From Alphaproteobacteria bacterium (lineage in GTDB: Bacteria > Pseudomonadota > Alphaproteobacteria > Micavibrionales > Micavibrionaceae), in assembly GCA_023150415.1 (NCBI GenBank), contig JAKLKY010000009.1, forward strand, positions 1-55,067: a stretch of DNA of 55,067 nt, given 5' to 3'. How positions within the stretch are numbered: the stretch's first letter is position 1; each line of letters begins with the position of its first letter. The position numbers and the translations under genes are program-made. A model generated the notes under the pieces. That model searched no databases. It was not told the DNA's origin and worked only from the letters and a program-made list of their open reading frames with translations. Of this stretch, positions 3,524 through 44,183 are shown one piece after another.

Positions 3524-3538
3524 GCGTAACAATCCCTT

Positions 3539-4792: not shown

Positions 4793-6766
4793 CTATCCCG
4801 CGCGCACCTTATCCAGGAACTGATCGACCGATTCCTTGAGGCTCTGCGAACTTGTCGCCAGCTGGTCCGATGCGCTCTTGAGGGTCCGCGTCGTTTGCGC
4901 ACTGTCATTCGCGGCCTTCTGGATTGCCATGATACCATTCACCGCCGTAATTGTTGCAATCGCTGTGGCCTTGACCGTTGTCACCTTGTTTGTGATGTCA
5001 TCGGTCATCCTGTGCGTTTCATTGGCCAGGGTTTTGACCTCGCTGGCCACAACTGAAAAGCCCTTGCCAGCTTCACCTGCCCGCGCTGCCTCAATCGTGG
5101 CATTGAGCGCCAGCAGATTAGTTTGCTCCGCCACGGCCTTAATCGCATTGATGACCTCATCAATCTCATTCACGGCCTTTTGCAGCTCTTCAAGTTTTTG
5201 CTGGGATGTGCGTGCTGAATCAGTACACACACGCGCTTTGTTCGCAGTTTCATTGATGTTATGTGACACTTCGCGAATTGAAGCTGATAGTTGCTCGGTA
5301 GCTGATGCTACCGTTTGCACATTCACCGAAGCCTCTTCGGATGCTGCGGAGACAGCCATGCTTTGCGAATTCGTGTTTTCGATCCCGCGGTTCAACTCAT
5401 CCGCCACGCTTTGCATTTCACGCGCTGCTGTCCCCACCTTCTCGACAATCGCGCTGATACTGTGTTCGAAATCATCAGCAAGCTTCATGGCCATGCGCGC
5501 CTTTTCCTCCTGCTGCTTGACCTTAAGTTCCTCCTGCTCATCCTGCAGGCGCAGAACAGACTCTGCGTTGTTTTTAAAGACCTGCACGGAACGAGCAATA
5601 TCGCCGATTTCTGAATGTGACGTTGTGAAAGGGACTTCAACATTCAATTTCTGATCTGCCAGTTTTTTCATCACGGATGTCAGCGCCGCTAAGGGCTTTG
5701 TCAGACTATTCACAACGAGGAAGAATAGAATCAGCGAGATCGCAACGCCGATGGCGGAGACAATCATAACTTCCTGTTGTTGCGTTCTGTAAGCTGCGAT
5801 ACGTGCATCCAAGAGCCCATCCAGCTCGTCAAACCCCTTTTCCCACAGTGCATAGGCGCTTTCGTAAGCGCTCTGCCAGCTCAGTAATAGCGCGGAAGGA
5901 TCTCCCACAGGCACGTTTGAAAGTTCATCGACAGCCTTCGCAAATACGCCATTCGCGTCCTGATAGGACGTGTGCAGAGGGATCATATTTTGCTCATAAG
6001 TCGGACTCTTTCCGTAGAAGTTAGGGTCTTCCTTCAAGGAGGTGTCCATATCGGCCGCAATACGTGCCATATCGGCCTCTTTCAGTAATGCCGCCATAAC
6101 AGCAGCGCGTGTTTGAAACGCGGGCGTCGCAGGGCCCATCTGATTTTGTAACGTTGGGATAAGTTCAGCCACAATCGCCGATAGCCGATCGATGGTTTGC
6201 GGCAGAGCCAGTAAGGTCACATCCATAAGATAATAACTGTCCAGATCTGGATCGAGAATTAGATTGGATGTATCGCCGCTGTGGGCGATCATTCCCCGAA
6301 TATCGCCGATGAAGGAAACCAGATTATCGTGTGTAGATTGAGAGTAATCCGCCTGCGAAATCGCCGAGGCAATCCCCGCCCATTTTTCTGCAACGGTTTC
6401 ATATTTCAAATGCTCCCGGCCACGGCTAGCAAGCCCTTCATCCGTAAACTGCAAATCGACACCGATTTTTGTCTGGACGGTTGCCAATTCTGCCATTTCA
6501 GACTCAATCGCGCTGCGGGCGGCATTCAAAACGTCAGGATTTTTTTGCGTTTGCATCAATGCCACACGGATGGTTCCGGCGTCGCGCAAAATTTTTGCTA
6601 GCGGGCGCTGGTATTCATTGCCCATTTTCTCTTTCACAGCGAAATCAATATTCGCGTTGATCGAATCATAAGCCTGATAAAGCGCCACGACCAACGTGAT
6701 CAAGAAAGTAAGAATACTGAGGATCATTCGTGAGCGGACGGAGAGATTGTTAAGATATTTTTGCAT
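4793..6766 (-). CDS. Methyl-accepting chemotaxis protein
   Basis: This is a transmembrane chemoreceptor that would signal to CheA/CheW. From the N-terminus it has a first membrane helix (about 13-35), a long helical periplasmic sensor of about 290 residues (four-helix-bundle style), a second membrane helix ([14 protein letters not shown]), and a HAMP linker with P-L-A-A-L-T and E-I-G-D-I-A-R-S-V. The signalling hairpin is [20 protein letters not shown]. No NWETF-type CheR/CheB tether is visible at the C-terminus. The start at 6766 is chosen because it begins just before the first membrane helix. An ATG at 6814 would add 16 residues, and neither has a clear Shine-Dalgarno. No other che gene is nearby; the ligand is unknown. 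Confidence 0.93.
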
Positions 6767-6915
6767 AGCGGGCCTATCGAGAAAAAGAGAAGTAATGCCT
6801 GTTAAAACTAGCATAGAATCGCTAAAAAGAAATTAGACTTAAAGTTGAATTTTGGAAAAGTTGATTGTCTTAACCGTATGTATCTGTAAGGTAGGAGAAA
6901 GAGGCTTGGACATTC

Positions 6916-8037
6916 ATGATCATCAGCAACACCACGAAATACGCGCTTTATCGTCTGGCTGCCGTAACCGCAGCCGTTGCATTGATTTTATGGGGATGCT
7001 TATGGGTGCTGACCCCGTTTGTTCCCGCCCTTATCTGGGCGATGATCTTATGCCTAACAACATGGCCAGCTTTTGTATGGCTTCAAAACCGTATGAACGG
7101 CTATCGCACCGCAGCCGCGCTTGTAATGACGCTGCTGCTTGCTTTGGGCTTCGTTGCGCCGATGGTGTTCTTGGGCTCCAGCCTGGCGGATAATTTCGGT
7201 ACATTATATAAACTTTTCCTGCAAAACCTGCATCATTATCCACAAAGCCCGCCGCAATGGCTCATTGATATTCCATGGCTGGGCCAAGAGATTGCCGATC
7301 TATGGCAACGCTATCTCAGCGATAGCAAAAAGCTTTCTGAAACCCTGACAACCTATGCCGAGCCGCTATCGAAAAGTTTTCTGGCTGTTGGCGCGTCCAT
7401 AGGCCGGGGTTTGCTGGATCTGTCTTTGGGTATTCTGATCGCCTTCTTTTTCTTCCGCGACGGTGTTGCGCTGGCACGCCGGTTCCGCCAGCTTCTGGAT
7501 CGCTTTATAGGCCCGCGCGGCCAGCATCTGCTGGGGGTGTTTAAAAACACAATGATCGCTGTTGTCTACGGCATTCTGGGTGCCGCACTGGCACAGGGAA
7601 CGGTGGCGGGAATTGGGTTCTGGATCGCGGGCATTCCAGGCGCTCCTTTATTAGGCTTGTTGACTTTTATTCTTTCTATCCTGCCATTCGGGCCGCCGCT
7701 GATCTGGATTCCTGCGACGATTTACCTGTACATGCAAGATCAAATCGGCATGGCGATTTTTATGGGGCTATGGGGCATGCTGGGCATAAGCGCGATCGAT
7801 AATGTGATCAGGCCCTATTTCATCAGCCTGAGCAGCAGTCTGCCACTGCTTTTGGTATTGCTCGGTGTTTTCGGCGGCATCATCGCCTTCGGTTTCATCG
7901 GCCTGTTTTTAGGGCCGACGCTTCTGGCGCTGGCCTATACCCTGATCACCGAATGGGGGGATCCGCATCACCAGTACCACCACCATCATGCACAGCATGA
8001 TCCGCAGCATAACCCGCTCAAAAAGCCACAATTATAA
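6916..8037 (+). CDS. AI-2E/PerM family membrane transporter
   Basis: This 373-residue polytopic inner-membrane protein belongs to the PerM/TqsA family. Two N-terminal hydrophobic helices come first, then a hydrophilic stretch (about 85-155), then a long hydrophobic core with the family-like G-I-L-I-A-F-F-F-F-R-D-G, G-I-P-G-A-P-L-L-G-L-L and I-L-P-x-G-P-P-L-I-W segments. Members have been proposed to export autoinducer-2 or act as Na+/H+ antiporters, so the substrate is open. Unusually, the C-terminus is rich in His (D-P-H-H-Q-Y-H-H-H-H-x-Q-H), which could bind metal. It overlaps the convergent uppP by 6 bases. Confidence 0.88.
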   Translation: MIISNTTKYALYRLAAVTAAVALILWGCLWVLTPFVPALIWAMILCLTTWPAFVWLQNRMNGYRTAAALVMTLLLALGFVAPMVFLGSSLADNFGTLYKLFLQNLHHYPQSPPQWLIDIPWLGQEIADLWQRYLSDSKKLSETLTTYAEPLSKSFLAVGASIGRGLLDLSLGILIAFFFFRDGVALARRFRQLLDRFIGPRGQHLLGVFKNTMIAVVYGILGAALAQGTVAGIGFWIAGIPGAPLLGLLTFILSILPFGPPLIWIPATIYLYMQDQIGMAIFMGLWGMLGISAIDNVIRPYFISLSSSLPLLLVLLGVFGGIIAFGFIGLFLGPTLLALAYTLITEWGDPHHQYHHHHAQHDPQHNPLKKPQL

Positions 8038-8826
8038 AAGCAGCGCTAAAACAAAAATCCCCAGCGCGATGCGGTATACGGCAAACGGCGCGAACCCAAA
8101 ACGGGAGATAATTCTCATCGCTATTTTAAGTGTAAATAACGCCGTCACAAACGCCACGCCGAAGCCCAGCAACATAACATCCCACTGGTTTTGGCTGGTG
8201 ATCGCCTCCCAGCTTTTGAGCGTGTCATAGCCCACCGCCGCCACCATCACTGGTACGGCGGCGAAGAAGGAAAATTCGGCAGCCGTGGCGCGGCTGAGCC
8301 CCAGCGCCAGCCCGCCCATGATCGTCGCGCCGGAGCGCGAAACGCCCGGGATCATGGCAATCGCCTGGAAACAGCCGATCATCAGCGCCGTGCGCCTGGA
8401 AATCGCATCGACATCCTGCGTGGTTTCACGGTGCGGACGCCGCTCCAGCCACAAAATGATTAATCCGCCAATAACCAGTGCCACGGCGATCACAAAGGGA
8501 TTGTAAAGGTTCGCCTTGATCCAGTCCCGCCCGATCAAGCCGACGATCACGGCGGGAATCGTGGCCGCTATCAAATTGAATACGAAACGCCGCGCCGTGG
8601 CATCGCCTTGCACAAAGCCCAGCGCACTGAACAGCCACTTGCGCCAATAAGCCACGACGACGGCCAGAATCGCACCTAGCTGAATGAACACTTCGAATAC
8701 ATGATCAGGCGAAGAAAACCCCAGAAAATGTGTCAGCAGCAGCAAATGCCCGGTCGATGAGACAGGGATGAATTCTGTCAGACCTTCGACAAAGCCAAGA
8801 AAAAGCGGCGTCAGAAACGAATCCAT
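8032..8826 (-). CDS. uppP: Undecaprenyl-diphosphatase (UppP/BacA)
   Basis: This inner-membrane enzyme dephosphorylates undecaprenyl pyrophosphate to recycle the lipid carrier for peptidoglycan and O-antigen synthesis; it also gives bacitracin resistance. The 264-residue protein shows the two catalytic family motifs, E-G-L-T-E-F-I-P-V-S-S-T-G-H (14-27) and P-G-V-S-R-S-G-A-T-I (about 159-168), within about eight membrane helices. Its ATG overlaps the stop of the upstream permease as TGATG, so it is probably translated by coupling. Confidence 0.96.
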   Translation of the reverse strand: MDSFLTPLFLGFVEGLTEFIPVSSTGHLLLLTHFLGFSSPDHVFEVFIQLGAILAVVVAYWRKWLFSALGFVQGDATARRFVFNLIAATIPAVIVGLIGRDWIKANLYNPFVIAVALVIGGLIILWLERRPHRETTQDVDAISRRTALMIGCFQAIAMIPGVSRSGATIMGGLALGLSRATAAEFSFFAAVPVMVAAVGYDTLKSWEAITSQNQWDVMLLGFGVAFVTALFTLKIAMRIISRFGFAPFAVYRIALGIFVLALLL

Positions 8827-10226
8827 CAGCGCGCGGCCAATTTGCTATGTTTGGCCGAGTACAAGAAGTAGATCACCATCCCCAGCGCCAGCCAGAGCAC
8901 AAAGCGCTCATGCGTGATCGTGGGCAGGAAGGCGATCAGCGCGCCGCAGGACAACGTGCCCAGCACGGGCAGCAAGATCCCAAACGGCATTTTGAACGGG
9001 CGCGACATGTCCGGGTGCGTCTTGCGCAGCACGATTACGCCGATGCAGACCAGAACAAACGCCGCCAGCGTACCAATATTCACCAGCTCCGCCAGCGCGC
9101 CCAGCGGAATGAACCCCGCCATGATCGCCATAATCACGCCGCAAACAACCGTGTTACGCACGGGCGTTTGCGTTTTATCATCCACCTTGGCGAAAAATCC
9201 GGGCAGCAAGCCATCCTTGGCAATCGCCAGAATGATCCGCGTCAGGCCGTAATACAGCACCAACATCACTGTGGTCAGGCCTGCGATCACACCCGTTGCG
9301 ACCAGCGCCGAAGCCCAGTTCACGCCAATTTGCTGTAGCGCGTGCGCCACAGGTGATGGCACATTCAAATCGGTATAAGGCACGATCCCGGTTAGCAATC
9401 CAGACACCACGATATAAATCACCGTGCAGAAAATCAGGGAGGCCAGAATGCCAATGGGCACGTCACGCTGCGGGCTATGGGCTTCTTCCACGGCCGTAGA
9501 CACGGCGTCAAAGCCAACATACGCAAAGAACACCAGCGACGCCCCAGCCAACACACCAATCGTATGGCCGCTCTCATCGTGAGCGAACCAGCCGAATGGC
9601 ATGAAAGGCGACCAGTTCTCGGGCTGTACATGGAACACCGCCACGGCGATGAACACCGCAATCGTCAGCAATTTCACGAACACCATCGCCGCGTTCAGCC
9701 GCGCGCTTTCCTTCATCCCCACAATCAGCAAACCCATGAGGATCAGGATAATCGCAACAGCGGGCAAATTCACCAAACCCCCTGCAAACGGGCCCTTGGT
9801 CAGCATCTCCGGCAGTCCGAAGCCGATCGCCGTCAGCGCATTGTTGAAATAACCTGACCAGCCATTGGCCACCGCAGCCGTCGCCACGCCATATTCCAAA
9901 ATCAAATCCCAGCCGATGATCCAGGCGATCATCTCGCCAAACGCCGCATAGGAATAGCCGTAGGCGCTGCCGCAACCGCCGACGCTCGACGCTAGCTCGG
10001 CATAGGACAAAGCCGCAAACGCGCAGGCCACGCCGGCAATCACGAAGGATAACACCACGGCCGGGCCGGCCTGCGTCGCCGCCGCCACACCCGTCAGCAC
10101 GAAAATCCCTGTGCCAATAATCGCGCCGATGCCCAGCAAGGTCAGATCGAACGCGCTCAGGCATTTCTTAAGCCCCAGCGCCTCGCCATCATTGACAACC
10201 AGTTTTTTGCGAAAGAATTGTTTCAT
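8826..10226 (-). CDS. APC-family amino-acid permease (CAT/YfnA type)
   Basis: This 466-residue transporter has about 12 membrane helices. The first helix carries the APC-superfamily substrate-binding motif G-I-G-A-I-I-G-T-G-I-F-V-L-T-G, and a later conserved segment reads F-F-A-Y-V-G-F-D-A-V-S-T-A-V-E-E. This pattern is typical of cationic amino-acid transporter relatives in bacteria; the actual substrate cannot be told. The ATG at 10226 is preferred over one at 10304 because a GGGGA and an AAGGA lie just before it and the protein then starts with the usual short cytoplasmic tail (K-Q-F-F-R-K-K). It is the first gene of a pair with uppP and divergent from hslV. Confidence 0.92.
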   Translation of the reverse strand: MKQFFRKKLVVNDGEALGLKKCLSAFDLTLLGIGAIIGTGIFVLTGVAAATQAGPAVVLSFVIAGVACAFAALSYAELASSVGGCGSAYGYSYAAFGEMIAWIIGWDLILEYGVATAAVANGWSGYFNNALTAIGFGLPEMLTKGPFAGGLVNLPAVAIILILMGLLIVGMKESARLNAAMVFVKLLTIAVFIAVAVFHVQPENWSPFMPFGWFAHDESGHTIGVLAGASLVFFAYVGFDAVSTAVEEAHSPQRDVPIGILASLIFCTVIYIVVSGLLTGIVPYTDLNVPSPVAHALQQIGVNWASALVATGVIAGLTTVMLVLYYGLTRIILAIAKDGLLPGFFAKVDDKTQTPVRNTVVCGVIMAIMAGFIPLGALAELVNIGTLAAFVLVCIGVIVLRKTHPDMSRPFKMPFGILLPVLGTLSCGALIAFLPTITHERFVLWLALGMVIYFLYSAKHSKLAAR

Positions 10227-16631: not shown

Positions 16632-18374
16632 ATGCAAGGTATGGATATTTTAATTCCGACAGTGATCTTGCTGGGCATTGGCTTCACCGTCATTTACCTC
16701 AGCCGTCGCATCAAGATCAGCCCCACAGTCGGTTTTTTGATCTCAGGCATTGCCCTGGGGCCGCATGTGTTGGGTTTGATTCAGGAAACAGAGACAACGC
16801 ATCTTCTGGCCGAGCTGGGTGTCGTGTTCCTGCTTTTTGACATCGGCTTACATTTCTCGAAAAAATCCGCATGGTCTTTGCGTCGTGATCTGACAACCCT
16901 GGCGCCGCTACAAATGCTGCTCAGCGGTTTGGTCATCGGCTCGTCGCTTTCACTGGTTTTTGGCCTGAGCGCGGATCTTGCCCTGCTTGTTGGACTTGCG
17001 TTGTCGCTCTCGTCCACAGCCGTGGTGATGCAGGTGGTGGCCGATCTGAAGCAAACGGAATCGCCCGTCGGCAAAACCGCCAAAGCCGTTCTGATTTTTC
17101 AGGACATCGCTGCAATCTTTCTTCTAATCCTCGCGGATTCTTTGGGCCAGGATCAGGATCTGAGTAATCTTTTGCTGCTGACAATTGCAAAAACCTGCGC
17201 TGCATTCGCTATGGCCTTGGGTTTGGGACGTTATGTGCTGGGACCCCTGATGCGCACAATTATCCGCTTTGATGATCCTGAATTGTTCATGGTGCTGGGG
17301 TTATTGATTGTAATGCTCACGGGCTTAGCTACCGCTTCGGTCGGTCTATCTCTGACATTAGGCGCATTTTTATCCGGCATGGTTTTGGCAGAAACACCGT
17401 TTCGCGTTTTACTGCAAACAGAATTGCGCCCGTTTCGCTCGCTTCTGCTGGCATTATTCTTCATTACCGTTGGTATGATGATAGATCCTGTCATGCTGGC
17501 GCAGAATGCAGGCACGGTGTTAAGCCTCGCAGCCCTTCTGATTGCTGTCAAAGGCGCGATTATCGGCGCGCTGGTTTTTGTGATGCGCCGTCCCTTGCAT
17601 CATGTCATTCAGCTGACCTTCCTGCTGGCGCAGGGCAGCGAATTTGCCTTCGTGATCCTGAGCATGAGCGCCGTGCACTCTGTGCTTGGTCTTGCTCTGG
17701 CCGAGCAATTGATTGCCGCCTGCGCGATTAGCATGCTGCTAACACCTCTCTTGGCGACGGCTGCCCATCGTTTTTCACTTAAACTCTGCCAAAGCCTCAA
17801 AGCCACCGTGGCAAATATCCATGACGAAGCGCAAAACCATCCCAAAAAAATGCACCCGGTCTTTATCGTTGGCATGAACGAAGTCGGGAAAACCATCGCG
17901 CGCGGCATGCAGGCGCACAGCATCCCCTATATAGCCATAGACGGCAATCGCCAGCGTTTCCTCGAAGCCACCGCAGCCGGCTATATCGTCGCCTATGGCC
18001 ATGCGGATGATTTACGTTTTTGGAAGACGCTGGGCGTCGAGAATGCGCGCGCGATGTGCATTGCCGCGCCGCGGCTGGAAATCTCCAAGAAACTGGCGCC
18101 CATCGTACGCAGCCTTTATCCCAACCTCAAGCGTTATGCCGCCGTGAAAGACTCGGCAGAGGGTGTGCGCTTTTCAAGCATGGGGCTGATTCCCGTTTAT
18201 AACAACGGCACGCCGCCGGGGCTTGAAATGGCAACCTATGTCCTGCGCGATCTGGGCATTGCGGATGTAAAAATCGAGCGCTGGAATGAAGAGGAACGCA
18301 GCGCTTATCTCGATTCCCAGCTCCCGACAGAGGAAGAGCGGGAAGATTTGGCCGTTGCTGCGGTGGCCGGTTAG
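16632..18374 (+). CDS. CPA2 cation:proton antiporter (KefB/KefC-like) with TrkA-N domain
   Basis: This 580-residue protein has a 12-13 helix Na+/H+-exchanger membrane domain (1-385) with I-S-P-T-V-G-F-L-I-S-G-I-A-L-G-P, E-L-G-V-V-F-L-L-F-D-I-G-L and L-S-L-S-S-T-A-V-V-M-Q. A cytosolic RCK/TrkA-N domain (about 408-525) follows, with the nucleotide-binding pattern V-G-M-N-E-V-G-K-T-I-A and an acidic D-G-N at the end of the second strand. Kef-type proteins exchange K+ for H+ under electrophile or osmotic stress. The glutathione-specific regulatory residues cannot be judged by eye, so the exact subtype is open. It stands alone, with unrelated genes on both sides. Confidence 0.92.
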   Translation: MQGMDILIPTVILLGIGFTVIYLSRRIKISPTVGFLISGIALGPHVLGLIQETETTHLLAELGVVFLLFDIGLHFSKKSAWSLRRDLTTLAPLQMLLSGLVIGSSLSLVFGLSADLALLVGLALSLSSTAVVMQVVADLKQTESPVGKTAKAVLIFQDIAAIFLLILADSLGQDQDLSNLLLLTIAKTCAAFAMALGLGRYVLGPLMRTIIRFDDPELFMVLGLLIVMLTGLATASVGLSLTLGAFLSGMVLAETPFRVLLQTELRPFRSLLLALFFITVGMMIDPVMLAQNAGTVLSLAALLIAVKGAIIGALVFVMRRPLHHVIQLTFLLAQGSEFAFVILSMSAVHSVLGLALAEQLIAACAISMLLTPLLATAAHRFSLKLCQSLKATVANIHDEAQNHPKKMHPVFIVGMNEVGKTIARGMQAHSIPYIAIDGNRQRFLEATAAGYIVAYGHADDLRFWKTLGVENARAMCIAAPRLEISKKLAPIVRSLYPNLKRYAAVKDSAEGVRFSSMGLIPVYNNGTPPGLEMATYVLRDLGIADVKIERWNEEERSAYLDSQLPTEEEREDLAVAAVAG

Positions 18375-18493
18375 ACAAGACCATCTCTGTTAGGTTCGAA
18401 ACTTGCGGGAAAGGTAGGGTTTTTATTGCTTTGTACTGAGATTTTTGCTATCAAAACACTATCGAAATAAACCAACAACATGGGGATATGGAT

Positions 18494-19168
18494 ATGAATT
18501 TACGCAGAATCTTAAGCGCAGCCGCCATAGGGGGCGGTTTGACAGCGGGAACACCTCACACGGCTGAGGCAGGTCCATTGACCTTCAAGTTTAAAGGTAC
18601 CGTTGAAAGTTACTACAACGATTTTATGAACACTTTCATGGACGGTCTAACCTTTTCTCCCGGAATGCCTATAAGTCTTGATATCGATTTCAGCAACGCT
18701 GACACCAGTTCAGTCTCATCTTATTATTTTAAAGCGGGCCAGGTCTACTTGCATGCGGCGCCATTAAGTTCAGAGCTAAATCTCCTTAATGACACCACAG
18801 ACCCATCTGGAAATATGGTGGATTCGCTCAACTTGACCCTTACAGCCAAGAACAATTTATCGACAATAAAGGGCGTGGGTACAATAAGTATACATGCTTT
18901 CGCTCCTGCAAATACAATCAGTTCAGATGGTTTCAGCCCTAAGAATGTTACGGCACTTATGTCGGGTGCTTTTTCCAACAGTGCTAACTCTTCTTTTGAT
19001 TTTTCGTATACAAGTAATTTCGGAACCTCTTGGGAAAAAGGACGTCTCGACAGCATGACAGTCGTGCCTAGCCCTGGGGCGCTTGCTGTTCTAACAGCGG
19101 GTGGTGTTTTGGCACATCGCCGCCGCAGAACACCACCGGAATCTGCACCTGCGCTCGAAGCCGCGTAA
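18494..19168 (+). CDS. Secreted protein with PEP-CTERM-like C-terminal sorting signal
   Basis: The 224-residue protein has a signal peptide (N-L-R-R-I-L-S-A-A-A-I, probable cleavage after A-E-A). A Ser/Thr/Asn-rich beta-type body follows, without cysteines. The tail reads V-V-P-S-P-G-A-L-A-V-L, then a short hydrophobic helix, then H-R-R-R-R: the tripartite layout of a PEP-CTERM/exosortase signal in the P-x-P-G-A-L-A variant, followed unusually by about 13 more residues. Such proteins are processed by exosortase and often linked to extracellular matrix. I chose the ATG at 18494 because GGGGA sits seven bases before it; the ATG at 18488 adds two residues. A strong terminator follows. The function of the body is unknown. 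Confidence 0.75.
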   Translation: MNLRRILSAAAIGGGLTAGTPHTAEAGPLTFKFKGTVESYYNDFMNTFMDGLTFSPGMPISLDIDFSNADTSSVSSYYFKAGQVYLHAAPLSSELNLLNDTTDPSGNMVDSLNLTLTAKNNLSTIKGVGTISIHAFAPANTISSDGFSPKNVTALMSGAFSNSANSSFDFSYTSNFGTSWEKGRLDSMTVVPSPGALAVLTAGGVLAHRRRRTPPESAPALEAA

Positions 19169-19188
19169 ATCCATCGTTTTTGGAAAAA

Positions 19189-19217
19189 GGGCAGACAGTG
19201 CTGTCTACCCTTTTTTT
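19189..19217 (+). terminator. Rho-independent terminator
   Basis: The inverted repeat GGGCAGACAG-tg-CTGTCTACCC (one mismatch) is followed by seven T. It ends the transcript of the PEP-CTERM-like gene and lies just at the 3' end of the convergent AAA gene. Confidence 0.88.
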
Positions 19218-20154
19218 ATTTTTGCACTAACCCCGCCACTTCCTTCTTCACCGCTTCCACCAATTTTTCATCGTGCAGGGCGGTTTTGTTCAGGCCGGTT
19301 TCGCGCCCGACCATGTAATAAATGGATTCCAGCGCGACCTCCTGCTGAGTGCCAAAATTTTTCACGTGATACGCCATCGCAGCATCCATGGTGATGATGG
19401 ATTTGTCGGGCTGGTTGCGCTTGCGCATATTTTCCTCAGTCAAGCGCACAATCAGCATTAGATTCTCGTCGCTAATGGTAACATTGTGGTGCGCCTCATA
19501 CCCCTTACGCAGCCCCTGCATGATGCGGAAAGTTTCCAGCACATTGGGCACTTTGAGGAAAATTTTCTGAAAACGCCGATCCATCGCCGGATCAGCCGCG
19601 ACATAAACGCGAAATTCATCCAAAGTCGTCGCGCCGATCACCAGCAAATCCCCCACCGTCAGATAGGGCTTCATCACATCCGAGAGCCCCTTGTAAGAGC
19701 TTGCCTCGCAATTGGGCATGATCTGATGAATCTCATCGATGAATAAAATGATTTTGGGAACGTCCTTGCGGTGATAACGCTCTGCCACGCCTTTACACAG
19801 CGGGATGAAACGCGACTGAAACTCGGCGGGGCTCGATGTGCCCGCCGCCATACGTGCCAGCTCCACTTCCAAAACACGTGCGCCTTTAAGAAAATCCGGC
19901 ACCTCGCCCGCCACAATTTTCTGCGCCAACCCAGCCACCAACGCCGTCTTCCCCACCCCGGCCGGTGCCAGCAGCGCGGCATTCTTACGGCCCTTTTGCA
20001 GCATGATCAAAATCGCTTCGTCGATTTCTTGATCGCGCCCTGTGATCGGATCAAACCGCCCGGCCTTGGCCAATGCCGTAAAATCGCGGCAATACAAATC
20101 AAAAAGTTTTTCCAATTCTAAATCGGATATTGTTGGCTTCCATTTTTCGGTCAT
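19216..20154 (-). CDS. Single-ring Clp-type (ClpA/ClpB D1-like) AAA+ ATPase
   Basis: This 312-residue protein looks like the first AAA module of ClpA/B/C without the N-domain or the second ring. It begins with a helix leading to F-D-P-I-T-G-R-D-Q-E-I-D-E (compare R-D-x-E-I in Clp D1). Walker A is A-P-A-G-V-G-K-T (about 63-70) and Walker B is I-L-F-I-D-E-I-H (about 137-144). A sensor-like V-I-G-A-T-T-L-D-E-F-R and the arginine-finger region M-D-R-R-F-Q-K-I follow. There is no visible ClpP-binding loop. The 16-base gap after serB suggests one transcript. Its partner or substrate is unknown; it might be an adaptor-fed disaggregase or a regulator. Confidence 0.8.
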   Translation of the reverse strand: MTEKWKPTISDLELEKLFDLYCRDFTALAKAGRFDPITGRDQEIDEAILIMLQKGRKNAALLAPAGVGKTALVAGLAQKIVAGEVPDFLKGARVLEVELARMAAGTSSPAEFQSRFIPLCKGVAERYHRKDVPKIILFIDEIHQIMPNCEASSYKGLSDVMKPYLTVGDLLVIGATTLDEFRVYVAADPAMDRRFQKIFLKVPNVLETFRIMQGLRKGYEAHHNVTISDENLMLIVRLTEENMRKRNQPDKSIITMDAAMAYHVKNFGTQQEVALESIYYMVGRETGLNKTALHDEKLVEAVKKEVAGLVQK

Positions 20155-20170
20155 CGTGCGTAGCCTTCAC

Positions 20171-21079
20171 TCATGCGTTCTTAACCCCAATATCGTTAAT
20201 CGTGTATCCCTGCGCAAACAAGACGGCGGTCAGATTGCCATGCAGGATAACATTAGGCACAGCCTCCGCCACCACTGATTTCGGGTGATAGCCGATCCCC
20301 AAGCCTGCGGCCTTGAGCATCGGAATATCATTCGCCCCATCCCCTATAGCCAGAACATCGGCGGGCTTGAGCTTATATTCATGCATATTCTTCAACAGCA
20401 ATTCCAGCTTGCTCGATTGATCGAGTATGGGTTCTTCTACAGCTCCCTCAAGACGGTTTTCCGTGATCTTGAGCACATTGCCATAGTGATAGGTAAATCC
20501 TAGCCGCTCCGCGACCACCTGCGTAAAGAACGTAAATCCTCCTGAAATCAGAATACACGCAGCACCATTTTTCCGCATGGTTTTCACCAACTGCAATGCG
20601 CCCGGATTAATTTGCAACGCATCGGCTGTTTTCTGCAGAGAACCAACATCCAGCCCCTTGAGCAAATGAACACGCTCGCGCAAGGCATCGGCAAAATCCA
20701 CCTCTCCCTCCATGACCCTTTTGGTAATCGCAGCGACCTGTTCTTGAACCCCTCCATACGCGGCAAGGGCATCCAGCGTTTCTCCCTGCACAATTGTAGA
20801 ATCCATATCTGCTAGCAAAAGTTTCTTGCGTCGGTTTTCAATCGGCACGACAAAAACATCGATTGCAAAACGATCCAGAAACTCGCGCAAATGGGTAATC
20901 GCCTTACCATCCGGTTTGGCCGAAATCCCCAAATCAACAGCTTGTTGCGGCGCGAGCCAAACGGGCGCGCAGGTGGGTTGGATTTGGTAGAGACCCAGTA
21001 ATCTCTGCACCTCGCCGATATGGCGGTTGGTCAGGGGCTGATGCGTGGTGGAGGCAACAAGTGTGAGAACAAGGCTCAT
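20171..21079 (-). CDS. serB: Phosphoserine phosphatase
   Basis: SerB catalyses the last step of serine synthesis, hydrolysing phosphoserine. The HAD-type motifs are present: D-M-D-S-T (91-95, nucleophile Asp and general acid Asp), S-G-G-F in motif II, a conserved Lys, and G-D-G-A-N-D-I-P-M-L in motif IV. The roughly 85-residue N-terminal domain resembles the regulatory extension found in many proteobacterial SerB proteins. The total of 302 residues is normal. It appears to be the promoter-proximal gene of a pair with the Clp-like ATPase. Confidence 0.95.
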   Translation of the reverse strand: MSLVLTLVASTTHQPLTNRHIGEVQRLLGLYQIQPTCAPVWLAPQQAVDLGISAKPDGKAITHLREFLDRFAIDVFVVPIENRRKKLLLADMDSTIVQGETLDALAAYGGVQEQVAAITKRVMEGEVDFADALRERVHLLKGLDVGSLQKTADALQINPGALQLVKTMRKNGAACILISGGFTFFTQVVAERLGFTYHYGNVLKITENRLEGAVEEPILDQSSKLELLLKNMHEYKLKPADVLAIGDGANDIPMLKAAGLGIGYHPKSVVAEAVPNVILHGNLTAVLFAQGYTINDIGVKNA

Positions 21080-21273
21080 GAAGGATTTCTCTTTGGCTTA
21101 GATACGCGGATAATCTGAGAGCTTATACTAACTCCCACGGCATATATTCTACATGCTGACGCGCCAAGTAAAGCCTTTGCTAGTTCTGCCGCTGGCAAAT
21201 CTCTTGAGCATTCCGAGGCCATTCGAGAAACGCACAAAATTGACATACGCTCTGATGTTTTTTATAAAACGGC

Positions 21274-35671: not shown

Positions 35672-37513
<1,842 letters not shown>

Positions 37514-37528
37514 TTCGATCCCTGCCGC

Positions 37529-40500
37529 TCATAAACGCCTGCACTGCCGCCAAAGCAAAAATCCGGCAAGGGCAAGACCTGCTCCCATCACCAGCCACAA
37601 CATCGGCAAGGCCTGCGTAGGCAAGAATGAGCCCTTGGGGGTCTTTTCTTTTGCGGCGGCGCTGAGCAACTCAACTTGCTCTTTAAGTTCATCGTGCGCG
37701 TTTTTGAGATCCTGTATCTGGGTTTCAAGTTCTTTATTTTCCTTGTTCAGCACCTGCACCGCACTGATCAGGGGCGCAATAAAATCCCGATAATCAATCG
37801 TGCGCATATCTTCGGTGCGATCAGGTTGAATGATCATTTCGGGGAAAACAGATTCCAGCTCTTGCGCGATGACGCCGTAACGTTTCCGCTTGTCCGCATT
37901 ATCCTTCATCACGAAGCTATGCGTTTTCACCTTCATCAGGCGATCCATAATCGCCTCGCTATCCAGAGGTTTGATATCCTCTTTCACGCGCCGATCAGAG
38001 ACTGAAGCGCCCATCGCCACCCACGCAGCACCTTCGCGCACTTCAAAACCCGGTGTCGTGGTATTGTAGCGGATCATCCCTGTCACAGCCGCTAAGGGGC
38101 GTTGAATCGATGTACCGTTAGGCACAATAATCGCATCCGTGCCCGAGCCCGCGTCGATAATCCCACGCGGTACTAATTGTGTTGCAGGCAGACGATTATC
38201 AATGACCACGCGCCCTCCGAAAATGCCAAAGGTACGCGCAGCGGTGACGTTGGCACCGTTATGATCACCCATAAAAAATGCTATGGCTCCGTCGCCGCTC
38301 ACGACAGGATTAGATGTCATGTTTCCTGCTCCAAAGGCAATGGCATTGACGCCTGTCGCGTTCACTTCCTGACCTAACGCTATTGAACCTGTGTTCGATG
38401 CCCATGTTGCCGAACCAAGGGCAACGGAGGCTGTACCCGTCGCAGCCGTACTCACACCAGCAGTAAAGCTGTTCGATCCAGAAGCAATCGAGCTCGTGCC
38501 AAACGCAACGCTAGCCGTTCCAATACCCGCGTCATCCCATTGTGTGCCAAGTGTATAGCCCGCGCGGAACGCTCCTTTTGACTTGTCGAAGAACATGCGG
38601 TTGTCGTCATCCGTACCGGCAGCATTGTCCAAGGTCGTGCCACCGAACAAGAAATCATCGCTGGCGATGGTCACAACGGTAGAGACAGGCCTGACGGAAC
38701 CGGTGCCCGAATCGCGTTCAAATGGACTGGGCACACCGCCGCCATCCGAGGTAAAGCCATCCTCATCCGTACCGCAACCCCATCCTGCGCTCGCTGTAAA
38801 AACAATTTTTTCCGTCGTATCATCACAATCTGGAACATCGCTGAATTCCTGCGACAAACCATCCAATAAATAAATGGGCGAACTTACGGAAATATTGGTA
38901 TCAATCTCTTCAAGCACATCGAGCGACTCCGAAATATCCACATCGCCACTCACTTCTAATGTGGCGTCATAACCACTCACAGCTGAATCGTTAGCATGAC
39001 CCAAACCGATACGCTTATTTTGTAAGTCCCCGTGAATCACATTGCCGATATTTAAATATCGCGAAGTTGCGGCTGCAGGCACATCTGCCAAGCTGCCGAT
39101 TAGAATATTTGTTGTCCCCGTAGTGAGAGTAGCACCCGTATTTGGTCCAAGCAGTGTATTATTTCCTCCGGAAACAGGTCCTGTTGTGCCCGCATTACGA
39201 CCGAGCAAAATTGTGCCACTTGCCGCTGCGGGTGTATCAAGTAACAAGTCTCCTTCAACGCGATAACCCCCTGTTGTATTAGCGGAACCGGTCACATCCA
39301 GCTCATAGGACGGCATTTCATTTAAAATGCCAACCTTACGGTCATTGCGAGCGAAGAGAATGCTGCTACTGGCGCTATTGCGCACGGTTAAAGCTGCTGT
39401 GGCATTGGTTGCCACCGTGCCTGTTATGATTACATCGGAATCTTCCATTGTTAATTGCTTATCCGTGCCATTCAACGTAACGCGCGGTCCCCCTGCCACA
39501 CCGCTATACAATTGAAGGCCGACATCGGGAACGTCGAGGCCGGTGATTGTCTGACCATTCGCCCATTGAACATTGGTATTCGACAACTTCACGGATCCGG
39601 TCAATTGGATATTCCCATCCACATCCAGCGCTTCTTGCGGATCGGAAAGAACCGTTCCAATCCCCACATTCCCGCCGCCATAGTAAATCTGCCCAGCATT
39701 ATCCCCAGCCACCCAATAGCTCGACCCTGAGGCCACACCTTCCCAGCTTGCCGCGCCTGCCCCGTCATTAGCGGGATCGTCGCAGATTTCAATCGAATCA
39801 GGCTCAGTGGTGCGATTGATACGAAGAATCCCAATATTTGCGCTATCCGCCGCTGCATTATCGCACATCGCATTCGTTGCTTCTGTCTCATCAGGTAGAA
39901 AAAGCGAGGCGGCGCCCAAACGCAACGCCGCGCTGGGCGACGCGCTCAGATCAATATCACCGCTGAAGCTCGCGCCGCCTGTGACCTCAAGATCTTTTGC
40001 AATGGTGGCTGTTGTCGGATCCCCTGTCTTAAGCGACCACAATCCACCAGACGATGCCACAGCCTCGGCATAGGTGAATTCGATGACGATATCATCACTG
40101 GCCGGGCCCTCTTCGATCAGATCATCGGCGTTATCGGGAATGCTATCCGCGTTCGCATCAACCCAGTTGTTGCAGGTGGTTTCAAAAGTCTGGTTGGGAC
40201 CGGCAGAGATAATCGCAATCACAACATAACCGTCATTGTTGCCGCCATCCAGACGCCGCGCATTTTCGCCTGCGCCGCTAACAGCGTTGCATCCGGCATT
40301 GTTGACAGACGAACCATTGTCCCATACGCAATAGCCATACTCGATTCCCCAGGGATCTTGCTTGGAAACACCCAACTGATCTGGCAATTGCCCGCCGCCC
40401 GTGGGTGCCGGCGTGCCCGTCTTCCAACCAAACGGCTCGACAAACGTATCGGCATCGCAATCGCCGCTGCTGGCCAGTTCTGCCGATTCAACAATCGCTT

Positions 40501-40681
40501 GACGATGAGCCAGTTGCATCTGTGCTTCAGCCTCGGCACGTCGACTTACAGTGACGAGAGTTGTTAACGGTCCGCGCGTCAATGACGCAATCCCCACACC
40601 GATCACACCGATCAATGCCACAGCCGCGAATAATGTGAAGAAAATATTGCCACGTTCATAAGGGCGATGATGCTGCAGCAT
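37529..40681 (-). CDS. Chimeric pseudopilin / trimeric-fibre protein with S74 endosialidase-type chaperone
   Basis: This 1050-residue mosaic has five visible parts. (1) A prepilin-like N-terminus: E-R-G followed by N-I-F-F-T-L-F-A-A-V-A-L-I-G (about 9-34), then a pseudopilin-like D-P-W-G-I-E-Y-G-Y near 108. (2) A long Gly/Thr/Asp-rich beta region with phage-fibre phrases (G-N-V-G-I-G-T, L-D-V-D-G-N-I-Q-L). (3) YadA/Hia-type head repeats (about 705-785: A-S-V-A-F-G, A-S-V-A-L-G, G-S-I-A-L-G, N-A-I-A-F-G). (4) A peptidase S74 intramolecular chaperone (about 890-960: S-D-R-R-V-K-E-D-I-K-P-L, R-Y-G-V-I-A-Q-E-L-E), then a coiled coil. (5) A C-terminal membrane helix with basic end. S74 domains fold trimeric fibres and normally cut themselves off at a Ser. 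It probably forms a surface or pilus-tip adhesin; the ligand is unknown. Confidence 0.85.
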   Translation of the reverse strand: MLQHHRPYERGNIFFTLFAAVALIGVIGVGIASLTRGPLTTLVTVSRRAEAEAQMQLAHRQAIVESAELASSGDCDADTFVEPFGWKTGTPAPTGGGQLPDQLGVSKQDPWGIEYGYCVWDNGSSVNNAGCNAVSGAGENARRLDGGNNDGYVVIAIISAGPNQTFETTCNNWVDANADSIPDNADDLIEEGPASDDIVIEFTYAEAVASSGGLWSLKTGDPTTATIAKDLEVTGGASFSGDIDLSASPSAALRLGAASLFLPDETEATNAMCDNAAADSANIGILRINRTTEPDSIEICDDPANDGAGAASWEGVASGSSYWVAGDNAGQIYYGGGNVGIGTVLSDPQEALDVDGNIQLTGSVKLSNTNVQWANGQTITGLDVPDVGLQLYSGVAGGPRVTLNGTDKQLTMEDSDVIITGTVATNATAALTVRNSASSSILFARNDRKVGILNEMPSYELDVTGSANTTGGYRVEGDLLLDTPAAASGTILLGRNAGTTGPVSGGNNTLLGPNTGATLTTGTTNILIGSLADVPAAATSRYLNIGNVIHGDLQNKRIGLGHANDSAVSGYDATLEVSGDVDISESLDVLEEIDTNISVSSPIYLLDGLSQEFSDVPDCDDTTEKIVFTASAGWGCGTDEDGFTSDGGGVPSPFERDSGTGSVRPVSTVVTIASDDFLFGGTTLDNAAGTDDDNRMFFDKSKGAFRAGYTLGTQWDDAGIGTASVAFGTSSIASGSNSFTAGVSTAATGTASVALGSATWASNTGSIALGQEVNATGVNAIAFGAGNMTSNPVVSGDGAIAFFMGDHNGANVTAARTFGIFGGRVVIDNRLPATQLVPRGIIDAGSGTDAIIVPNGTSIQRPLAAVTGMIRYNTTTPGFEVREGAAWVAMGASVSDRRVKEDIKPLDSEAIMDRLMKVKTHSFVMKDNADKRKRYGVIAQELESVFPEMIIQPDRTEDMRTIDYRDFIAPLISAVQVLNKENKELETQIQDLKNAHDELKEQVELLSAAAKEKTPKGSFLPTQALPMLWLVMGAGLALAGFLLWRQCRRL

Positions 40682-40696
40682 TGTAAATCCTGATGA

Positions 40697-42487
40697 TTAG
40701 AATATTAATACACGCCGAAAACCACTAAGACCTGGCATAGTATAAAAGAAAACTTGATCCTGCGCATCCCATTCGATGCTTTGTGTAAAAAAAACTGTGC
40801 GAAATTCTGGCGCAATATTTTTCAAGAAATTATTCATTTGTGAATGCGGAATACCCAGGCGGCGCGCTTGCACTGCCAGGCGCAGCATCTTCTTCAAGGC
40901 ATTATTCTGATGAAAAGTGCTAATAACGCCAACATTGGTTGTGAAAGTGGTCAACGACAATTCTGCCAACAACGTCCCCAGCGGGTTATAAACCCGCAAC
41001 CAGAGAGGCATCGGCTGCAGCACGGCAAATACGGCGCGCTGGCGCGCCATCAAATCCGGATGTATGAACAAGTCATCAGCAATTTCAAGCGCGGCGGTGA
41101 ATTGATTGCGCGTAGCGTTAGGCTGGATAAAGGGAAAATAGCCAACCAGCGAACGCTGCAGCAAATTCTCGTAGAGCACATATTCATGCGCCATAATGCC
41201 ATCGATCACATTCTGCCCGAATACGAGATCCGCCACCGCCAGATCGATTTCCTTCCCATAGTCCAGCACGGCTTGCGGCCAAGCGCGCAGCAAAATCGGC
41301 AAAGCGCTCAGAATATGGTTGTAATGGATGATGATTTTACTTTTTCCGGATAGAAAGCCTGGCTGGAGCAAGGCTGTGCGCCAAAAAGATGCCGCCTGCA
41401 ACCAAGCCACAAAAACCGCTTGAGGTTGTGGATCTTGCCCTTCGATTTGCAGGATGAGATCGGCCAGGAACAGATCGGTTAAAGCAACACTTTCCTGCGT
41501 TAAATAAACATTCTCGATCCGCTGCGGCGAAGCGGTGAGCATATCGCGCCGGTATGCGTCAATCAGCCCGCGATAGGCAGATAGAACACCCTGCGCCTCC
41601 TGCGGCGTGGGACATATGGCGATAGCACGATAATGCGCGTGGCGTGAAGCGCAGCGAAAATCTGGTAACTTCACGGCGATATCGAACCCCGAACGGTTGC
41701 GCCAAGTCGCTATCAAGGGTGCCAGATCCTGCGGCGCCTGCGCTGTCAATGCCACAAGCCTTGTATCCAGTGGTCGATCCGTGAGGTTCAGCGCCGCCCA
41801 GCCGCCCACAATCAGCATCTGCAACAAAACCAGTACCAGAAATGGCCCATGAAAGATTTTCTGCAGAAAGGTCGGCCCCTCCGGATGTACATCAAAATGA
41901 TCGATCTTCACATCCCAAAGAATATCGTGCAGCGCGCGTTTGCCCCGGCGGGTGAGCACAGGCACGTAAATGGCAACTTGCAGCAAAAGCAACAACGCAA
42001 AACTGTTTAACAACCCCCAATGCAACAAGGGCAGCTGCATTTTCACGCTGATTAATACCAGCTCATTGGCCAAAATCAGCGGCGCAAATCCCGTAAATGA
42101 CCATCCCCACGCCCGCAGGAAAGACAGGCGCTGGCCGTTGCTGTTACGGCGCACACGTAAATAAAATGCAACCATACCCGGCGTCGCGCGCACCGTGCTG
42201 GCGATCCCGATCGCCGAAAGGGCAAACAATCCCGCGATAATCGCCAATGATCGGCCCACACGCCCCCAATCCATATCCGGCGAAGGCGGCGTATAGCGCG
42301 GCCGCGTGAAAGGCACATCAAAGGCCAGATGATAGACAAAGCTCAGCGCTGCCAGCCCCAGGAGCAAAACCCCGATATCTAAAACCATTGCGCCGTGCCT
42401 TTGCACCAATGTCGCGGGAAAGACATGAAGACGGTTTTGATAGGGATTGAGGAATTTATGTAGAAAATGTGGTGTGCTTGCTTCCAT
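40697..42487 (-). CDS. RDD-like multi-pass membrane protein, function unknown
   Basis: This 596-residue protein has an N-terminal membrane part (about 30-215, four or five helices) that resembles the RDD domain: M-V-L-D-I-G-V-L-L-L-G at the first helix and T-P-G-M-V-A-F-Y-L-R-V-R before a basic loop. After a further helix (about 215-240) comes a 350-residue extracytoplasmic or cytoplasmic domain I do not recognise. It is Leu/Ala-rich with several Trp and ends F-F-Y-T-M-P-G-L-S-G-F-R-R. Fifteen bases separate its stop from the fibre gene start, so the two are very likely one operon. A role in export, anchoring or maturation of the fibre is an inference from position. Confidence 0.7.
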   Translation of the reverse strand: MEASTPHFLHKFLNPYQNRLHVFPATLVQRHGAMVLDIGVLLLGLAALSFVYHLAFDVPFTRPRYTPPSPDMDWGRVGRSLAIIAGLFALSAIGIASTVRATPGMVAFYLRVRRNSNGQRLSFLRAWGWSFTGFAPLILANELVLISVKMQLPLLHWGLLNSFALLLLLQVAIYVPVLTRRGKRALHDILWDVKIDHFDVHPEGPTFLQKIFHGPFLVLVLLQMLIVGGWAALNLTDRPLDTRLVALTAQAPQDLAPLIATWRNRSGFDIAVKLPDFRCASRHAHYRAIAICPTPQEAQGVLSAYRGLIDAYRRDMLTASPQRIENVYLTQESVALTDLFLADLILQIEGQDPQPQAVFVAWLQAASFWRTALLQPGFLSGKSKIIIHYNHILSALPILLRAWPQAVLDYGKEIDLAVADLVFGQNVIDGIMAHEYVLYENLLQRSLVGYFPFIQPNATRNQFTAALEIADDLFIHPDLMARQRAVFAVLQPMPLWLRVYNPLGTLLAELSLTTFTTNVGVISTFHQNNALKKMLRLAVQARRLGIPHSQMNNFLKNIAPEFRTVFFTQSIEWDAQDQVFFYTMPGLSGFRRVLIF

Positions 42488-42521
42488 AACCTCAGATCAC
42501 TATATATGCTCTTATAAACAC

Positions 42522-44183
42522 ATGACATCAGATTCGCCCACAGCAACCCCCTACCGCGTTCTTGCGCGTAAGTATCGCCCGCAGAATTTTGACCAGCTGA
42601 TCGGTCAGGACGCGCTGGTGCGTACCTTGAAGAACGCCATTACTTCGGGCCGCATTGCCCATGCCTATATGCTGACCGGGGTGCGCGGCGTGGGCAAAAC
42701 CACCACTGCCCGCATCATCGCCAAAGCCTTGAATTATAAGGGCCCAGATGGGACATCTGGCCCAACCACCGGCCCAACGGATGATTGCGCGCTGTGCCGC
42801 GCCATTGCTGAAGACCGCCACCCCGACGTCATGGAAATGGACGCCGCCAGCCGCACCGGCGTGGATGACATTCGCGAGATTATCGACGGCATGCGCTACG
42901 CCCCCAGCGAGGCACGCTATAAAATCTACATCATCGACGAAGTGCACATGCTCTCCAAGAACGCGTTCAACGCGCTTTTGAAGACCCTGGAAGAGCCCCC
43001 CGAGCATGTAAAATTCATCTTCGCGACCACTGAAATTCGCAAGGTTCCCGTCACCGTGCTGTCGCGCTGTCAGCGTTTTGATTTGCGCCGCGTGGATGCT
43101 GCGACGCTCCATGATCACTTCCAGAAAATTTGCGATCTTGAGAGTGTGCAGGCCGAGGCCGATGCACTGGCCCTGATCGCCCGCGCAGCCGATGGGTCCG
43201 TACGCGATGGTCTCAGTCTGCTCGATCAGGCTATTTCATTGGGAGGCGCGCAAGTCAGCGCACAACAGGTCAAGGACATGCTGGGTCTGGGTGATCGCGC
43301 CCAAACCCTTGATATGCTTGAATTTCTGCTCAAGGGCAAAACCGCCGAAGGATTGCAGATCTCCGACGACCTCTTCCGGGCCGGCGTCGATCCGCTGGTG
43401 CTGGTGCAAGATTTGCTTGATCTCGTGCATCTTTTGACGCGCCTTCGCGCAGTGCCAAAGTCAGGATCGTCGCTCTTGACACCAGATATGCAAAACAGAT
43501 GCGCGGCGCTCGCCGCCAGCCTGTCGATGCCGTCTTTGGGCAAAGCCTGGCAGATCTTATTGAAAGGCATTACCGAGGTTCAGCATGCACCACAGCCACA
43601 GAATGCCGCCGAAATAATCCTGATTCGTTTGGCTTATGCCGCTGACCTACCTGATCCGGTCGATCTTCTTCGCAGGTTGAAAGATCAGCCTGAAAGCACT
43701 GCGCAGGCACCCCTCTCAACGGTATCGCCGCCGATATCCGGAGGCAGTACGGCCCGTACGCGTACGAATGGATCAGCAACAGCTTTAGCCATTTCTGAGC
43801 CTTTGCAAAGCTCTGTACCGGCTCCCCGTACGCTTGAAGATGTTGTCGCTCTGCTGGATCAGGGCGGCGAACCCTTGCTGGCTAGTCAGGTTTATCATGG
43901 CGTGCACCTTATTAAGATGGAAGAAGGGCGGCTGGAAATCAGACCACATGAAGACGCCCCGCCCCAATTGGCGCAGGATCTGGGCGCGAAGCTCAGTGTT
44001 TTGACCGGCCAACGCTGGATTGTCAGCATCTCGCGCGAGGTCGGCGCAGCGACTTTGGCACAACAAGCACAAGGTGTTCGCGCAGCAGAATTCGAAAAAA
44101 TCTTGCAGATGCCTCTTATTCAGGCCATTGTGGACACGTTTCCGGGCACCAAGCTCGTCGATATTCGCGATAAGAAGGATTAA
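42522..44183 (+). CDS. dnaX: DNA polymerase III subunit gamma/tau
   Basis: DnaX is the ATPase core of the clamp loader. The 553-residue protein has Y-R-V-L-A-R-K-Y-R-P-Q-N-F near its start, Walker A G-V-R-G-V-G-K-T (53-60), Walker B-type I-Y-I-I-D-E-V-H-M-L and the S-R-C-Q-R-F-D-L arginine-finger motif. Domain III and a C-terminal tau-like region (about 410-553) follow. Between N-Y-K-G-P-D-G and E-D-R-H-P only C-A-L-C remains of the usual four-Cys zinc module, so zinc binding may be lost. The ATG at 42522 fits the family start. It is followed by ybaB after five bases. Confidence 0.96.
   Translation: MTSDSPTATPYRVLARKYRPQNFDQLIGQDALVRTLKNAITSGRIAHAYMLTGVRGVGKTTTARIIAKALNYKGPDGTSGPTTGPTDDCALCRAIAEDRHPDVMEMDAASRTGVDDIREIIDGMRYAPSEARYKIYIIDEVHMLSKNAFNALLKTLEEPPEHVKFIFATTEIRKVPVTVLSRCQRFDLRRVDAATLHDHFQKICDLESVQAEADALALIARAADGSVRDGLSLLDQAISLGGAQVSAQQVKDMLGLGDRAQTLDMLEFLLKGKTAEGLQISDDLFRAGVDPLVLVQDLLDLVHLLTRLRAVPKSGSSLLTPDMQNRCAALAASLSMPSLGKAWQILLKGITEVQHAPQPQNAAEIILIRLAYAADLPDPVDLLRRLKDQPESTAQAPLSTVSPPISGGSTARTRTNGSATALAISEPLQSSVPAPRTLEDVVALLDQGGEPLLASQVYHGVHLIKMEEGRLEIRPHEDAPPQLAQDLGAKLSVLTGQRWIVSISREVGAATLAQQAQGVRAAEFEKILQMPLIQAIVDTFPGTKLVDIRDKKD

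Follow-up and report, generated by a model that had tools for sequence, protein, structure and literature searches.

Relation to described systems

A 2021 list of modular type IV pilins, in which a pilin-type N terminus is joined to a sizable functional module, includes an architecture combining a pilin motif with an S74 domain (IPR012902-IPR030392) (PMC8179133). The window analyzed here, a stretch of 55,067 nucleotides, is the entire contig C96 of an alphaproteobacterial assembly that measures 1.92 Mb and is 92.5% complete, and it carries an open reading frame (ORF) of related design, encoding 1050 amino acids (aa), at positions 37529 to 40681 on the reverse strand, which is also the strand of all of its parts described below. 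We consider it probable that this gene encodes a minor prepilin fused to a self-trimerizing phage-type fiber, which is carried on the type IVb-like pilus of contig C5 of the same genome. Its product consists, in this order, of a leader, a hydrophobic helix, a pseudopilin-like domain, a phage-fiber-like body, YadA head repeats, an S74 domain, and a coiled coil, and it finishes with a transmembrane helix, the end of which is basic. The initial annotation of the window, made from the sequence alone, had already given this order, and the ORF, Pfam and PHROGs matches, homolog alignments, and structure models agree with it.

The fiber resembles several described systems in part. In the 2021 list, the S74 part of the modular pilins was read as a predicted peptidase and not as a trimerization module (PMC8179133), and the fiber differs from these pilins in having no pilin Pfam signature, no Glu at mature position 5 (Glu5), and a C-terminal membrane helix after S74. 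PilV of conjugative type IVb (thin) pili is likewise a minor pilin with an exchangeable C-terminal part (PMC9045228), and in Rhodoferax a homolog of the fiber is placed last in the pilus operon of a conjugative plasmid, whereas the S74 domain and the C-terminal membrane tether set the fiber apart from PilV. No Shufflon_N (PF04917) match was found in the fiber by Pfam, and no inverted repeats were found in window positions 36500 to 43000. The mosaic adhesive trimers (MAT) of Bdellovibrio are S74-terminated chimeric trimeric fibers of a predator, with variable tips and an SDxxxK motif (PMC10769870). According to their description, they are distinguished by a signal peptide and a conserved 130-aa beta domain (PMC10769870), in contrast to the prepilin-like helix, pseudopilin-like domain, and post-S74 tether of the fiber. 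In Myxococcus, large variable minor pilins at the tip of the Kil pilus decide prey specificity (PMC12075869), but Kil is a Tad pilus with a heterotrimeric KilLMN complex, and an S74 fiber is not mentioned in that study (PMC12075869).

The C-terminal half of the fiber has its closest counterpart in MYRF/MrfA, in which a beta stalk, an S74/ICA domain with a Ser-Lys dyad and a GVIAQ motif, a coiled coil, and a transmembrane helix follow one another and cleavage frees the N-terminal trimer (PMC3742440, PMC8326128); MYRF/MrfA is a eukaryotic transcription factor, however, and its cargo, compartment, and N terminus are unrelated. With the major pseudopilins GspG, EpsG, and PulG, the fiber shares a DPWG..Y motif and an acidic loop and, judged by its model, probably also a long alpha-1 helix and a similar beta fold; unlike them, it has no Glu5 and no T2SSG Pfam match, is larger, and is fused to a fiber. 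The initial annotation had treated the order of parts as not known from a described protein, and the idea is not an undescribed one, given the pilin-S74 architectures listed in 2021 (PMC8179133). Pilin-S74 fusions and predators with modular pilus tips are already known. The novelty lies in uniting these features in a single chain, in a membrane tether like that of MYRF, and in the connection with one particular pilus system throughout a lineage of predators.

The N-terminal leader and pseudopilin-like domain

The fiber protein begins with a short leader (residues 1 to 11, MLQHHRPYERG; positions 40649 to 40681) that ends in a putative prepilin peptidase site after Gly11. This glycine is conserved in 86/86 aligned homologs and is followed by Asn (76 sequences) or Ser (10 sequences). 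The hydrophobic helix after it (residues 12 to 36; positions 40574 to 40648) opens what is, in the structure model, a long alpha-1 helix of the pilin type. AlphaFold predicts a single helix from residue 13 to 67 and then a small beta domain (pLDDT 84.6), and together these make up a pseudopilin-like domain from residue 12 to about residue 235 (positions 39977 to 40648). A DPWG..YGYC motif lies within this domain. Its DPWG part (residues 109 to 112; positions 40346 to 40357) is conserved as D in 86, P in 81, W in 85, and G in 73 of the 86 homologs, and the residues that, besides Gly11, are invariant in the same alignment are Gly37-Pro38, Asp109, Tyr117, Cys118, Cys170, and Asp196-Asp197.

In a sequence-profile search of solved structures, the pseudopilin EpsG was the best match, with the two DPWG motifs aligned, at a weak E value of 0.29. 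A Foldseek search with the N-terminal model placed GspG first (E value of 2.2), with E values that are not significant, and the entries listed by VIA-align were all GspG, EpsG, or PulG, with Z scores of 6.0 to 7.0 over 84 to 91 residues, below the tool's caution level of 8; because VIA-align realigns Foldseek candidates, its result does not count as independent of that search. Taken alone, every one of these scores is weak, but the sequence profile and the predicted fold agree on one family, and the domain is therefore likely to be related to GspG-type pseudopilins, as the initial annotation had proposed from the D-P-W-G motif. In other proteins, the N-terminal domain is joined to different ends, including RCC1 propellers, DUF1554, Lcl_C, and glycine-rich and T4 gp34-like domains. 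The fiber family would add trimeric phage-type fibers of up to about 5000 residues to the cargo that prepilin-like bases are known to carry.

Association with a type IVb-like pilus

The genome that carries the fiber gene encodes two A24 prepilin peptidases and two pilus systems. The first, a type IVa-like system on contig C14, comprises PilB, PilC, PilT/U-like ATPases, a PilD with its N-terminal domain, and a secretin. The type IVa-like secretin is apparently split into two frames in this genome (L131, positions 2831 to 4637). The second is a type IVb- or MSHA-like system on contig C5, with a secretin, an ASH-domain protein, an ATPase, a PilC-like protein, two prepilin-like proteins, and a short A24 peptidase nearby, and one of its prepilins starts with G-N, like the fiber. 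GspG was not found in this genome, which rules out a type II secretion system (T2SS) of its own as the source of the pseudopilin resemblance.

The N-terminal domain of the fiber goes together with the C5-type system. Among the Micavibrio-group genomes that are at least 90% complete, the counts for a strong N-terminal domain (present/absent) against C5-type PilC (present/absent) are 61/0/6/13 (p 8.6e-11). Four genomes from four genera (G009, G052, G070, and G084; 93 to 99% complete) have neither the fiber domain nor the C5-type PilC, while most of their sister genomes have both. Flagellin is kept in these four, and general motility loss was rejected as the cause of the co-loss, since flagellin is retained in nearly all co-loss genomes. 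No such association was found with the type IVa-like machine (C14-type PilMN; p=1), which is present almost everywhere, fiber or no fiber, and was rejected as the partner of the fiber.

The only match of the N-terminal domain in a plasmid search was on the Rhodoferax conjugative plasmid NC_007901 (L150, positions 17992 to 21141; E value of 3e-26). This homolog lies directly downstream of three pilin-like genes, with a tail-fiber assembly gene further downstream, in an operon that is homologous to that of C5 (secretin, 32% identity; ATPase, 34%, with an E value of 1e-79; pilins, E values of 6e-9 and 5e-16). One further related machine, in Methylibium, was found in the plasmid searches, and it has no fiber. 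The fiber family is tied to one pilus system by where it occurs and, in one distant relative, also by its place in an operon. These results lend support to the pilus mounting proposed in the initial annotation, and of the genes that it had suggested looking for, prepilin peptidases and type IV pilus machines are present.

Several observations weigh against a fiber mounted on this pilus. The EpsG profile and fold scores are, taken singly, below significance, and no Pfam N_methyl/pilin or T2SSG match was found in the fiber protein at E values of up to 1. At mature position 5 (residue 16), Glu is absent, and Ala, Thr, Met, Leu, Val, or Phe is found instead in the alignment of 86 homologs; judged by its residues, the segment after Gly11 is for this reason no textbook class III signal. 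The prepilins of the C5 system are likewise without Glu at this position. The fiber gene is not near the pilus operon in its own genome, and it is possible that the fiber and the C5 machine were lost together through a shared change of lifestyle. In addition, where the pilin helix would be expected, the Rhodoferax homolog has, as read from its sequence, a Sec-type signal peptide. The one Stella vacuolata record that was scanned has two genes with the N-terminal domain and no T2SSE or A24 match, and this host, which is outside the group, appears to be without pilin machinery. C5-type PilC was not found in six records outside the group, an empty answer that shows little without a positive control.

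Some of these points would also fit a plain signal-anchored fiber of the envelope, in which the N-terminal helix is an uncleaved inner-membrane anchor and the pseudopilin-like domain merely a base, with no pilus involved. The missing Glu5 and the Stella record are compatible with such an anchor, as are the leaders of 71 to 86 residues, with an additional hydrophobic segment ahead of the conserved Gly, that occur in some proteins outside the Micavibrio group (L105, positions 5758 and 8487; L104, position 5797; L059, position 5812). We regard this explanation as unlikely, however, because an invariant Gly directly precedes the helix, the domain co-occurs and is co-lost with one pilus machine, the Rhodoferax homolog has a pilus-operon context, and a fiber fixed in the inner membrane could not readily reach the surface.

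A substrate secreted by a pilus-like machine in the style of type II secretion would need no place in the filament: the domain would dock, and the fiber would be released or kept at the surface. The closeness of the domain to GspG and the Sec signal peptide of a homolog that nevertheless lies inside a pilus operon agree with this, and there is a known example in CofJ, which is secreted and acts together with the minor pilin CofB (PMC8179133). In the Micavibrio group, however, the membrane helix and the invariant Gly site argue for pilin-type processing, and we consider secretion of this kind to be improbable. Because of the operon context and the Sec-type signal peptide in Rhodoferax, the globular domain is read as belonging with a type IVb-like pilus, with a mode of attachment that differs, and a pilus-mounted fiber is the reading that we favor for the Micavibrio group.

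The S74 chaperone and its probable membrane tether

The S74 intramolecular chaperone/autoprotease was identified at residues 895 to 949 (positions 37835 to 37999), where Pfam Peptidase_S74 matches with an E value of 2.8e-14 and 53.6 bits against a cutoff of 22. Ser895 (positions 37997 to 37999), the predicted cleavage nucleophile, is equivalent to MYRF S587 and endoNF S911 (PMC8326128) and forms the Ser-Lys dyad, with the lysine at +5, together with Lys900 (positions 37982 to 37984). Ser895, Asp896, and Lys900 are invariant in 13/13 relatives, so that the cleavage serine to which the initial annotation had pointed as a check is present. A GVIAQ motif begins at residue 936. The best structure match of the predicted S74 part is the MyRF ICA domain 7dc3 (Foldseek E value of 1.6e-6; VIA Z score of 8.6 over 122 residues), followed by the phage chaperones 3gw6, 3gud, and 4uw8. 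The domain is followed by a coiled-coil helix (residues 965 to 1013; positions 37643 to 37789; helix 99 to 147 of the model) and by a C-terminal transmembrane helix (residues 1025 to 1049; positions 37535 to 37609) with a basic RQCRRL end at residues 1045 to 1050.

In MYRF, the dyad S587/K592 and GVIAQ serve cleavage and trimerization, and through the cut the N-terminal part is detached from a membrane anchor at the C terminus (PMC3742440); cleavage depends on the trimer, and a coiled coil is present (PMC8326128). By sequence and modeled fold, S74-driven trimerization and a self-cut before Ser895 are strongly suggested for the fiber. The N-terminal domain is carried by 49 complete proteins, and a hydrophobic helix at the C terminus was found in 14 of the 17 that have S74 (a fifteenth is just below the threshold) and in none of the 32 without S74; the sequences are related, a small number of the 32 contain frameshifts, and a p-value is only a guide here. 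Because the helix occurs with S74 and never without it, it is read most simply as a part of the chaperone that holds the latter at the membrane. The membrane helix with a basic end that the initial annotation had described is present, but it is probably the tether of a cut-off chaperone and not the final anchor of the fiber. A role as a PEP-CTERM-like sorting signal was rejected, as no such model was listed in the scans and S74 would cut the helix off. The arrangement of S74, coiled coil, and membrane helix that is known from human MYRF thus also occurs in bacteria, and its role there would be that of a quality gate through which trimeric fibers are released.

Between the pseudopilin-like domain and S74 lie the variable phage-fiber-like body (residues 236 to 744; positions 38450 to 39976), the length of which varies by thousands of residues among relatives, and two copies of the YadA head repeat (best stretch, residues 747 to 771; positions 38369 to 38443; PF05658, E value of 5.8e-8). 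The YadA beta-barrel anchor of trimeric (type Vc) autotransporters was not found by Pfam; there are head repeats only, and the C terminus is one helix. Tail fiber families of PHROGs match residues 707 to 1005 (best E value of 1.3e-24), as would be expected if the gene were a prophage tail fiber or a remnant of one. This origin is extremely improbable, since the neighbors of the gene are housekeeping genes (BipA, DnaX, YbaB, an exonuclease, and MscS) and the N-terminal domain had no match in a phage collection, nor in one scan of viral contigs.

Distribution and variation among relatives

The fiber has relatives in 77 of the 104 genomes of its taxonomic family, and an N-terminal-domain profile gave 77 strong matches in 103 Micavibrio-group genomes. 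In named records, the related loci belong mostly to Micavibrio and other alphaproteobacterial assemblies, in agreement with the Micavibrio-like host considered in the initial annotation. Relatives that show the entire design, from the N-terminal domain through the body and S74 to the C-terminal helix, are present in no fewer than 12 further genomes of the group and range in length from about 1000 to 5033 aa. Because the whole order of parts recurs in this way, a misassembly that joins adjacent genes, one of the cases in which the initial annotation would have been refuted, was rejected. Separate S74 frames directly downstream of, or overlapping, the fiber frame in L079 and L114 look like frameshifts.

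In the orthologs of two complete and closely related genomes, G037 and G038, identity is 98% across the 455 N-terminal residues and 95% in the 100-residue block after the S74 start, while the blocks at 700 to 900, 1300 to 1500, and 2200 to 2560 drop to 42 to 71% identity. The last of these ends just before S74, and the region just ahead of S74, at 42 to 60%, is among the most divergent, in line with the tip variability that the initial annotation had suggested comparing. Judged from these sequences, the pattern is what one would expect if the base stays constant and the binding parts are exchanged. The ortholog of G038 (L040, positions 1216 to 9748) is in two frames of 462 and 2375 aa, while that of G037 is a single frame of 2739 aa, and the split may represent a frameshift, a sequencing error, or phase variation.

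Outside the group, the N-terminal domain was found in Stella, Stappia, Methylobacterium, and Nitratireductor. Serine recombinase genes lie upstream of the fiber gene in a Nitratireductor, a Hyphomicrobium assembly, a Stella, and a Stappia, at L079 4935-5552, L101 3557-4231, L105 4370-5530, and L107 4957-5538, with distances of 230 to 400 bp (L079, L105, and L107) and about 1.8 kb (L101). Switching by a shufflon or invertase was rejected, as no inverted repeats were found on either side of the fiber genes. In Stappia, one protein (L107, positions 5899 to 9111) combines the N-terminal domain with T4 gp34 trimerization and Shufflon_N regions and is a possible link between the fiber family and PilV.

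Proposed assembly and prey contact

In the favored reading, the chain would first enter the inner membrane in such a way that its two basic ends face the cytoplasm while its body lies in the periplasm. S74 and the coiled coil, as sequence and fold strongly suggest, would then gather three chains, and the S74 cut before Ser895 would release the fiber from its C-terminal membrane tether in a MYRF-like manner. A peptidase would cut after Gly11, and the pilin helix would enter the pilus, probably at its tip. The pilus would then push the fiber through the secretin, and the end of the fiber, which would be the stretch just before Ser895, may recognize prey surfaces, with specificity changed among relatives by swapping the body and tip. 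As a model for a whole family of pilus-tip fibers in a predatory lineage, this scheme is tentative, and we place it somewhat short of an even chance. Each fiber would have an inner-membrane anchor at either end and be set free for display by the MYRF-like self-cut, so that only correctly trimerized fibers leave, and repertoires would diversify as bodies are swapped while the pilin base and the chaperone-tether stay constant.

The fiber family is a concrete, widespread, and testable candidate for prey recognition by epibiotic predators such as Micavibrio. The initial annotation had suggested prey contact if the host were Micavibrio-like; the host does belong to the Micavibrio group, and prey binding by the fiber may be supposed, but the N-terminal domain is also present in nonpredators. 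The same construction could instead serve attachment to surfaces, kin, or mating partners, which would be compatible with a pilus-mounted mechanism. This purpose would suit the presence of the domain in the four genera named above and on a conjugative plasmid, and PilV adhesins are known to select mating partners (PMC9045228). We regard it as quite unlikely, however, as the near group-wide presence in Micavibrio relatives, the large repertoires, and the hypervariable blocks are as expected for prey recognition.

Gene neighborhood and composition

In 20 mononucleotide shuffles of the window, the longest open frame had 333 codons, compared with the 1050 aa of the fiber ORF. An RDD-domain membrane protein of 596 aa is encoded on the same strand 15 bases upstream of the fiber gene (positions 40697 to 42487). 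A conserved operon of the two genes was rejected, as other fiber loci are without an RDD or BipA homolog. The third-codon-position G+C content is 0.52 in the fiber gene, compared with 0.73 in the adjacent BipA gene, which suggests a foreign origin or relaxed codon use.

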